DNA of 14,759 bases from positions 1 through 14,759 of the forward strand of contig MNUO01000015.1 of NCBI GenBank assembly GCA_001871015.1. Direction: 5' to 3'. The number at the start of each line of letters is the position of its first letter. The stretch's first letter is position 1. Positions 12,558 to 14,758 of the stretch are shown here, piece after piece. The translations under genes and the position numbers were made by a program. The notes below the pieces were generated by a model, which was given only the letters and a program-made list of their open reading frames with translations, was not told the DNA's origin and did no database searches. The DNA comes from Candidatus Desantisbacteria bacterium CG1_02_38_46. Its GTDB lineage: Bacteria; Desantisbacteria; UBA1551; UBA1559.

Positions 12558-13081
12558 ATTTTTTGTAGTAATTTAGAAATAATTTCTTCTGTTATTTCCT
12601 TCAAGAATTTTTCTTTTATAGAATTGTCGAATTTTTCTTCTTCTCTTTTTTCTATTTCTTCTTCACTAAATAAAATAAAATTTGTTTTGTCTTCTTGCTC
12701 TTTTACCTCAACAGGCTCTTCAAGAAGTTTTCCGTTTTTTATAATCTGAAGATTGATTTCTGTCTTTGCATTGCCAGTCCGATAACGAAAAGGACCAAAA
12801 GAAAATAAAGTAGTTCCCAAATAAAACTCTTTAATTTCTGCACTAATCCATATACCTTTATCTTCTAATCCCTTTTTAAATCCTTCCCTGTCGCACAAGG
12901 CGACAATCCGATACCCTCTATTTTCTAACTCTTGCTTAATTCTTAAAGTTATCTTTTTCTCAATATTTTCTTCTTTATAATCACTATTGTTAAGAAAAGT
13001 GGCTAAGGTAATTGTCTGAGAATGTGCACTAAAATTGGATAAAATAACAGGGATGATTAGAAAAATTAAGTTTTTCACCAC
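12554..13081 (-). CDS. Small exported protein of unknown function
   Basis: A 175-residue protein I do not recognise. Residues 1-21 are a signal peptide (MVKN, long hydrophobic stretch, SAHS before Gln22), so it is probably periplasmic or attached to the envelope. After cleavage come alternating beta and helix (TITLATFLNN, then KKITLRIKQELENRGYRIVAL), an arrangement also seen in envelope assembly proteins that lack a common name. The last 45 residues are rich in Glu and Lys and probably helical. No lipobox cysteine. The start is GTG at 13081, overlapping the stop of the barrel-OmpA gene by 7 bases; a second GTG follows at once. The overlap suggests it works with the outer-membrane protein. Confidence 0.75.
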   Translation of the reverse strand: MVKNLIFLIIPVILSNFSAHSQTITLATFLNNSDYKEENIEKKITLRIKQELENRGYRIVALCDREGFKKGLEDKGIWISAEIKEFYLGTTLFSFGPFRYRTGNAKTEINLQIIKNGKLLEEPVEVKEQEDKTNFILFSEEEIEKREEEKFDNSIKEKFLKEITEEIISKLLQKM

Positions 13082-14526
13082 TTCAAGATAATAATTTCTA
13101 TACGACGATTTTGTTTTCTTCCTGTTTCTGTATCATTGGAATCAACTGGTTTATCCGCACCATAACCACGGCTTGAAATTCTAGATTTATCTATCCCCTT
13201 ACTTACGAGATAATTTGCTACTGCCTGGGCTCTTTCTAAAGAAAGTTTCATATTCGCTGCCCAGCTTCCAGTAGAATCAGTATGACCTTCAACTCTTATT
13301 TTATTTTCTGGATAAAGATTGGCCATTTCAAGAGCTCTGTCGAGAATAGAAAATCCTTCTGAAGAAAGAACAGAGGTCTGCTCGCTAAAAATAATATCGG
13401 CATCAATGATTATTCCCAAGCCGTCAGTCCTTTCCTCTAATTTTATTGCTTCGCCTGCTTTCTCTTTAATTTCTTTCTTTTTCTCTTCCAATTTTTTCTT
13501 TTCTTCTTCTAATCTCTTTAATTCTTCTTCTCTTTTTCTCATCTCTTCTTTTAATGCTTCCTGGACAGGTGCAAAACTGGTGGTAAATGAAAAACGATGA
13601 GTAAAAAGATTTGCCTGGAACAAAGAAATTATCATTGCATAATCAATCTGGAAAGGAAAATCGTTTTCTAAGTTTTTATAGCTCCCCCCAAAGGATAAAT
13701 TTGTTCCATTTAAAAAGGGGAAATTTACTCCGCCACGGACACTGAGAGGAACTTTAAATAATGGAGCTAAATCCTGTTCTGCTCCTACGCATACTGTTGA
13801 TTCAGTTCTTTCCTGATAAGTATAATACTTGTTAATAAAATCAAAAGAAATCAGTAATTTTTCCAGAGAAAAACTTCCTCCTGTTCTTATTTCCAGAGGT
13901 AAATGGTCTTCTATTTTTGAACTGGAGGAAACAATATTTGGTTGATTTAAATTGCCCAGAGTCAAACCAAAAGAAATTGCTTCATCCGGTTTATAAATTA
14001 ATCCTGCATCCAGAGATATGCTTGTGTTGCTCAAAGGACCTTCTTCCTCAGAATTAAAAGAAAGTGTTCGTGCACTATTCCAGAATAGAATTTTTAATGT
14101 TCCGCCAACGGATAAAGATTCAAAAATTTGATGGGCATAGGAAAAAGCAAAAATATTTTCTGAATATTTATTTGAACCCAATAATGACCATAAAGCTCCG
14201 ATAGCGTTTTTTGTCTTTTCATTTTCTATTTGAATTGGGGTAGAAAAACTGATAAGAGAATTATAAACAAGATCATTTACAAGACCAAAGAAAAGATTAG
14301 AATAACTGGACCCTAAAGACATTCTTTTTAATTTTGTAATGCCAGCGGGATTAATAAGAATACTTGCCGGTTCATCGCTAATTGAGCAAAAGGCATCTCC
14401 CATTCCCTGAGCCCGAACAGTAGTTGTCATTACATTTTCAAAAGCAGCATAAGCTACAGCAAAAAATGAAAAGCTAAAAACCAAAAGAAAAAACATAAAA
14501 ACTAAAATTTTTTGTCGAGTAGACAT
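13075..14526 (-). CDS. PorV/UPF0164-type barrel fused to OmpA peptidoglycan-binding domain
   Basis: A 483-residue outer-membrane protein. Residues 1-27 form a signal peptide. The barrel part starts TTTVRAQGMGDAFCSISDEP (35-54) with NPAGI (59-63), as in PorV/UPF0164 proteins, and runs to about 318 with many amphipathic strands. Residues 322-366 are a highly charged coiled coil of Glu and Lys. The OmpA C-terminal domain follows (about 370-483): GHTDSTG (414-420), LSLERA, GYGADKPV, GRKQNRRIEI. Asp417 and Arg432, 15 residues apart, match the pair that binds diaminopimelate in peptidoglycan. It would tie the outer membrane to the wall. The ATG at 14526 has GGAGG 8 bases upstream, but both lie in domain VI of a group II intron. 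The first 13 bases of the frame are intron sequence, and the native start was probably elsewhere. Confidence 0.9.
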   Translation of the reverse strand: MSTRQKILVFMFFLLVFSFSFFAVAYAAFENVMTTTVRAQGMGDAFCSISDEPASILINPAGITKLKRMSLGSSYSNLFFGLVNDLVYNSLISFSTPIQIENEKTKNAIGALWSLLGSNKYSENIFAFSYAHQIFESLSVGGTLKILFWNSARTLSFNSEEEGPLSNTSISLDAGLIYKPDEAISFGLTLGNLNQPNIVSSSSKIEDHLPLEIRTGGSFSLEKLLISFDFINKYYTYQERTESTVCVGAEQDLAPLFKVPLSVRGGVNFPFLNGTNLSFGGSYKNLENDFPFQIDYAMIISLFQANLFTHRFSFTTSFAPVQEALKEEMRKREEELKRLEEEKKKLEEKKKEIKEKAGEAIKLEERTDGLGIIIDADIIFSEQTSVLSSEGFSILDRALEMANLYPENKIRVEGHTDSTGSWAANMKLSLERAQAVANYLVSKGIDKSRISSRGYGADKPVDSNDTETGRKQNRRIEIIILKW

Positions 14527-14560
14527 CTTTTATACCTCCATTTGGTATTTAATGCCCCTC
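14517..14560 (-). ncRNA. Group II intron domain VI with branch-point A
   Basis: GAGGGGCATT (14560 to 14551) pairs with GATGTCT-A-CTC (14527 to 14517), leaving A14520 as the single bulged base. It is seven bases from the inferred intron end, counting itself, the correct place for the lariat branch point. An inner stem ATACC/GGTAT (14544-14548 with 14532-14536) caps it. The ATG of the next gene (14524-14526) is fully paired in the outer stem, and part of its GGAGG is in the inner stem, so the fold would hide the ribosome site. Confidence 0.82.
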
Positions 14561-14563
14561 ACA

Positions 14564-14596
14564 GAACCGAACGTCCAGATTTCCCAGATTCGGCTC
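14564..14596 (-). ncRNA. Group II intron domain V (catalytic hairpin)
   Basis: A 33-base hairpin starting GAGCCGAA and ending TTCGGTTC. These arms pair completely, with the characteristic G.U in the AGC catalytic triad. A CG bulge sits in GACGTTCGG, and the hairpin is closed by a GAAA-type loop. Domain V is the most conserved part of group II introns (usual length about 34), and this is a close match with an apparently intact active site. Confidence 0.93.
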
Positions 14597-14614: not shown

Positions 14615-14758
14615 CTACGAGGATAGAGCATAAAATTGATGATATATCTTCGGTTCTGGCAAGGGATTATGTTTTAAATAGCGACAAAATCTTTCAAAGG
14701 TATAACTTTTCTTCTGACTTCTTCTGTTTACCCACTTATAGGCAAGTTTAGAAGTTTT
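14615..14758 (-). CDS. Group II intron reverse transcriptase/maturase, C-terminal fragment
   Basis: The last 47 codons of a protein that enters from beyond the window edge, ending at TAG 14615-14617. The residues YKWVNRRSQKKSYTFERF followed by PLPEPKIYH match the end of the maturase (X) domain of bacterial group II intron proteins (usual pattern YxWLNRRSQRRSxxWxxF and PLPxPxI). It stops about nine residues after the Pro-Leu-Pro motif, so no HNH endonuclease domain is present, as in class C-like introns. The stop lies 18 bases before domain V, the normal arrangement for a protein encoded in domain IV. The frame is open at the window edge with no sign of decay. Confidence 0.9.
   Translation of the reverse strand, partial: KTSKLAYKWVNRRSQKKSYTFERFCRYLKHNPLPEPKIYHQFYALSS

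Follow-up and report, generated by a model that had tools for sequence, protein, structure and literature searches.

A group II intron lineage that probably targets start codons and carries a replacement initiation signal in its domain VI

Which start codon opens the OmpA-family gene at the end of this contig, one of its own or one brought by a group II intron? The window, that is the whole stretch of DNA analysed (14,759 nt), is an entire contig of Candidatus Desantisbacteria bacterium CG1_02_38_46, and its minus-strand end falls inside a group II intron, which is where repeats typically break assemblies. The middle of the intron is absent from this assembly, so its reverse transcriptase (RT) is visible only partly (Table 1); its C-terminal motifs recur in the complete intron-encoded proteins (IEPs) of G116, G137 and L088. 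Domains V-VI were matched by Rfam RF00029 at 14598-14514 (-) with 47.4 bits (E 7.8e-07, full model), above the cut-off of 40 bits, and domain V had its catalytic core. In the predicted fold of domain VI (14563-14514), a basal helix of GAGGGGCAUU and GAUGUCUACUC with a single bulged A carried an upper hairpin, AUACC/GGUAU. The bulged A lay 7 nt ahead of the intron 3' end, the usual branch-point position in group II introns, and a distance of 7-8 nt was found in the window copy and most of 20 distinct domain VI sequences (exceptions L046 and L074). The first-pass annotation had placed a Shine-Dalgarno (SD) sequence and an ATG inside domain VI, and the intron end after the 13th base of the reading frame. 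The fold bore out the former, placing GGAGG across the loop and upper stem and ATG within the basal helix, and the latter agreed both with the end of the RF00029 match and with the point where five own-genome copies diverge. The frame ATG TCT ACT CGA C/AA AAA ATT TTA (a slash marks the intron-exon junction throughout) ran for 483 codons of an OmpA-family protein. The further idea that the new N-terminus supplies a needed positive charge was not supported, because the spliced product, MKKILVF, would have two lysines already.

Table 1. Features at the minus-strand end of the window
Feature	Position	Strand	Basis or remark
Reverse transcriptase/maturase (intron-encoded), C-terminal end KTSKLAYKWVNRRSQKKSYTFERFCRYLKHNPLPEPKIYHQFYALSS-stop	14615..14758	-	Sequence; remainder beyond contig edge
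Domain V	14564..14596	-	Rfam RF00029
Domain VI hairpin, closing with last intron base	14514..14563	-	Rfam, fold, covariation (19 copies), divergence point of copies
Shine-Dalgarno GGAGG, loop and upper stem of domain VI	14535..14539	-	Sequence; retained in relatives while stem covaries
Bulged A, predicted branch point	14520	-	Fold; position -7
Intron-borne ATG start codon, basal stem of domain VI (paired)	14524..14526	-	Sequence, fold
OmpA-family gene from intron ATG (MSTRQKILVF...)	13075..14526	-	Native exon from 14513; native start would be ATG A/AA AAA

A search of the same genome revealed four further intron ends, every one at a contig start. The five copies were identical (99% over the available part at contigs C33 and C98) up to ...ATGTCTACTCGAC and diverged after it; they shared ...GATGTCTACTCGAC and parted ways directly after GAC. 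The intron 3' boundary at 14514 is thus fixed by copy divergence, independently of Rfam, and no copy with another end base was found in this lineage. The intron ATG was in frame with the adjoining gene in all five (ORFs of 483, 305, 209, 506 and 375 aa), and the genes encode an OmpA-like protein, a sugar-isomerase-like protein (Pfam match MbnB/TglH/ChrH), an M50 protease, a peptidase-like secreted protein and a DUF6807 protein, the names "isomerase-like" and "peptidase-like" being our own reading. A sixth copy (C71) consisted of a bare SD-ATG tail ahead of a dehydrogenase. In the seventh, decayed copy (C76:13308), the tail ATGTTTACTGGAC (L007 about 1500-1543, G000:C76:13308-13350) was in frame with a protein of 158 residues that looks secreted. 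The same genome also holds a second, unrelated group II intron of RF02003 type with a complete RT (L001, G000:C76:35277-36497), whose domain VI has no SD-ATG.

The own-genome intron starts were located by searching with the 5' end taken from a complete relative. All three 5' junctions consisted of a Shine-Dalgarno sequence followed by ATGA, namely AGGAGGAAAGAGATGA/GTGTG, GAGAGGTGGGAAAATGA/GTGTG and AAAGGAGGGAAATAAAATGA/GTGTG, and the 5' GUGYG with domain I (GTGTGCCGAG) was present on contigs C122, C105 and C2 and not on the window contig. The upstream flank, in which the first-pass annotation expected a 5' splice site GTGYG and a 5' exon, was therefore recovered for three own-genome copies, while the 5' exon of the window copy was not assembled beside it. 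RF02005 was matched in L027 and L028. ATGA also preceded the intron in G116, G137, L088, L057, L066, L033 and L034, and ATGG in L040; in some more distant relatives, e.g. L035, the intron did not follow ATGA. In the nearest genome compared (G001), the gene after nadE is that of the M50 protease. In our genome nadE-SD-ATGA/intron stands on C105 and intron/M50 on C76, and given the adjacency in G001 the two halves very probably belong to one interrupted nadE/M50 locus.

How the intron might find such sites is suggested by its domain I. When domain I was compared with the 5' exon in 11 introns, the best complementarity of all registers was that of a UCAU loop facing exon positions -6 to -1, with 5.55 of 6 pairs. 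This EBS1, UUCAUU at about nucleotide 195, is an anti-start-codon that pairs with AATGA, and it covaries with IBS1: in L033, UCAUGUU faces AACAUGA. The first base of the 3' exon was A in 60 of 68 copies. No EBS2 pairing with the Shine-Dalgarno sequence was found, and an EBS2 acting as anti-Shine-Dalgarno was rejected, as no register gave consistent pairing; the Shine-Dalgarno sequences in the 5' exons may reflect selection instead of targeting. A shifted version occurs in G433, where CAUUUUU faces AAAAAUG/ and the tail has 15 nt; the frame would also be kept, though its single copy has no long gene behind it. The start that the tail itself provides (window 14526-14514) reads ATGT, not ATGA, and mismatches EBS1, so it should be a poor target for the intron itself.

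Insertion at this point has a simple consequence for the frame. The native start plus one base makes 4 nt, and intron ATG to intron end makes 13 nt; the difference is 9 nt, hence the host frame is equal in spliced and unspliced RNA. The spliced reading ATG A/NN and the unspliced reading ATG TCT ACT CGA C/NN (MSTRQ...) have identical frames. For example, adk with an intron copy in a Deltaproteobacterium MAG reads MSTRHLILVGPPGSGKG, whereas adk of nine relatives without the intron reads MNLIL or MKLIL, with the ATG placed one base before the junction. These empty sites start with ATGAAY (8/9) or ATGAAG (1/9), matching the joining point of the intron. For the window's own ompA no empty site could be compared, since the nearest homologue (39% identity) was too divergent at its start.

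To see how far the tail extends, the SD-ATG tail pattern was scanned in one genome per species (84,980 genomes), and 54 genome stretches matched. The record titles named Omnitrophota, Nitrospirae, Deltaproteobacteria and Thermodesulfobacteriota, Elusimicrobia, Chloroflexi, Planctomycetales, Gemmatimonadota, Latescibacterota and others; the carriers are MAGs named by record title, and single assignments may be wrong. Together with further copies, 68 were classified. An ORF that reached 60 aa or more, or was still open where the contig stopped, followed in frame in 54 of the 68 copies and in 7 of 136 cases for the other two frames (Fisher p about 3e-28), with a median ORF of 211 aa in frame vs 9 aa in the other frames. 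The shared frame is not due to chance. Because the tail was fixed by the search pattern, the invariance of the tail and of the domain VI 3' strand cannot be counted as evidence; the pattern did not select for frame, and the frame test is unaffected. The first-pass claim that the exon continues in frame from the intron ATG was thus confirmed beyond the 483 codons of the window, in 5/5 own-genome copies and 54/68 overall. The remaining 14, including five of the seven copies of a type with long domain VI and the full copies in G116 and G137, had no ORF of 60 aa, indicating that insertion is not confined to working genes. In the long type, domain VI contains a conserved insertion of about 70 nt (L043, L047, L060, L068, L069, L077 and L087), which has an open frame in at least some of the carriers (IVTLSIPKGERNREYKAYLKEVFE-like); tails of this type were in frame less often (2/7). 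In a Nitrospirae MAG, L069 1227-3103 is a twintron, an RF01999-type group II intron within the IEP gene of an intron of the ATG lineage. Spread by phages or viruses was considered and rejected, as there were no matches in viral contig or phage sequence sets.

The copies that have lost most of the intron were the most telling. Domain V was absent upstream in 23 copies, which kept only the SD-ATG tail, joined to unrelated sequence at varying points, and 21 of these 23 were in frame. Among the in-frame copies with only the tail or part of domain V, 18/24 lacked any further in-frame start codon upstream, and in those checked the following methionine often lay far inside the protein. In the phosphoglycerate mutase of L039, the Pfam Metalloenzyme profile starts at residue 6, directly after MSTRQ. 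To the extent that sequence can tell, the tail works as a start by itself, with the intron gone. Tails truncated at the 5' side would be produced by an early stop of reverse transcription at insertion, and would be produced equally by later deletion. We lean towards the view that the last ~30 intron bases are a mobile translation start, and that retrotransposition stopping early leaves SD-ATGTCTACTCGAC before genes, rewriting gene starts across phyla to carry a uniform ribosome site and the N-terminal residues MSTRQ. The first-pass idea that the protein, with a new N-terminus, can be translated from unspliced RNA gains its strongest support from these in-frame tails; unspliced RNA of full-length copies would likewise make the host protein from the intron ATG, and is likely used for translation.

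Taken together, it is highly likely that the window copy belongs to a lineage of mobile group II introns that target start codons and carry a replacement initiation signal. The EBS1 guide UUCAUU would pair with AATGA and direct insertion one base after the native ATG, usually with a Shine-Dalgarno sequence just upstream. The 3' strand of domain VI would have been shaped into a replacement start (GGAGG, about 8 nt, ATG TCT ACT CGA C) that keeps the host frame native. Splicing would restore the native start, while unspliced RNA or tail-only copies would start at the intron ATG, with MSTRQ (or H, R, P, L) replacing the first two residues. Insertion would thereby do almost no harm, also in essential genes and also once the ribozyme is gone. 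The boundaries, frame, EBS1 pairing, domain VI covariation, multi-copy spread and truncated copies can be read from the sequences themselves; from them we infer that the intron is spliced and that ribosomes use its ATG, and harmlessness would be the reason why the trait spread.

The SD and ATG could instead matter only once splicing is lost, live copies depending wholly on splicing and the tail being an accidental start that a few dead copies use later. In fact, several introns without the ATG share the 3' end TCTACTCGAC (L158, L159, L172 and L175), so the STR codons derive from the ribozyme end and only the ATG and SD are novel; the ATG also sits in a paired stem. However, across wide relatives (IEP identity down to about 47%; G088, G190) the SD, its spacing and the native-start frame are retained while the stem covaries. 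Among 19 distinct domain VI sequences, standard pairs filled 97.2% of pair cells vs 86.7% in shuffles, and all 5 upper-stem pairs changed on both sides, indicating that the hairpin is maintained as a structure around the retained Shine-Dalgarno. GGAGG would not be kept by accident, and we regard an accidental tail as quite improbable.

Alternatively, the branch-point fold may hide the start, so that splicing and translation are alternative fates yielding two controlled N-terminal forms. The position of SD and AUG inside the domain VI hairpin invites such a regulatory switch, and the first-pass annotation had held that the splicing fold conceals the ribosome site. Folding gave no clear sign of this: the predicted mean openness of the initiation region was 0.31 unspliced vs 0.24-0.27 in spliced-like leaders, and competition between splicing and translation, judged by folding, was not adopted. 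The host genes are functionally unrelated, and 21 of 23 copies without domain V are nevertheless in frame, which makes a switch unlikely. As GGAGG-N-ATG is common at gene starts, one might also suppose that the intron is not the cause, with native starts resembling the motif and tail-only copies arising by chance. This reading was refuted by 54 genome stretches that match over at least 20 bases and share one particular 13-nt coding tail, by the reversed pattern, which gave 1 match vs 67 for the true pattern in 41 genomes, and by orthologous adk genes lacking the motif; we give it practically no weight.

Group II introns of bacteria are generally believed to stay out of genes, since splicing there has to contend with coupled translation. 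A lineage that targets the start codon and brings its own replacement would show another way out: in many bacterial phyla, the gene in which it landed would be translatable whether or not the intron is spliced. That would explain introns ahead of essential genes such as adk, the harmlessness of dead or shortened copies and the overprinting of a ribozyme helix with a start signal. It would also account for a set of MSTRQ protein N-termini, and it offers a ready test of intron-host accommodation.

Several known introns touch on gene starts in other ways. A surface-layer gene of Clostridium tetani reportedly contains a group II intron with alternative 3' splice sites; this intron likewise alters the N-terminal part of the host protein, but by alternative splicing and with no intron-borne start codon. 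The TeI3 family F3 introns of Thermosynechococcus elongatus lie between two start codons, but they occupy one conserved site within the RT gene of another intron, their initiation signals are those of the host ORF, and no SD and ATG supplied by domain VI was found described there (PMC2882425). In Clostridioides difficile, processing of a c-di-GMP riboswitch-group I intron decides whether the ribosome site is joined to the start codon (reviewed in PMC3984707). It is also a self-splicing intron tied to translation start; however, it is a group I ribozyme at one domesticated site, ligand-controlled, with a ribosome-binding site positioned by splicing, whereas the present mobile family carries a complete ribosome-binding site and ATG without need for splicing. 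In the open-access literature searched we found no description of group II introns with a start signal in domain VI, and we provisionally regard it as new.

Complete RT/maturase IEPs, encoded in domain IV, were found in L027, L028 and L088, and that of L088 matched solved group II intron RTs (E 7.9e-50). RmInt1-like introns (bacterial class D, endonuclease-less IEPs) resemble the present family in domains I, V and VI, the GUGYG 5' end, the bulged branch A, EBS1-IBS1 targeting and an RT/maturase IEP with little sequence beyond the maturase region, and the IEPs are about 41% identical to those of Sinorhizobium plasmid copies. The usual target of RmInt1 is an insertion sequence. Copies in G177 and G030 share the 3' end TCTACTCGAC but have a domain VI without SD or ATG, and the SD-ATG tail was also missing from Peribacillus and a second G088 intron. 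In the IEP tree, from which RmInt1 itself is absent, the ATG introns formed a group (95/98) apart from G177 and G030. A single origin of the SD-ATG trait was rejected, as the trait must have changed at least twice among the labelled rows of the tree. SD-ATG tails were also found in G088 (about 47% IEP identity), in G190 and in the Caedibacter plasmid pKAP298. In the last of these (Caedibacter taeniospiralis, L177), the tail reads MSTRQKGAIA and stops at GCATGA, which overlaps the ATGA start of the next gene, a possible case of translational coupling.
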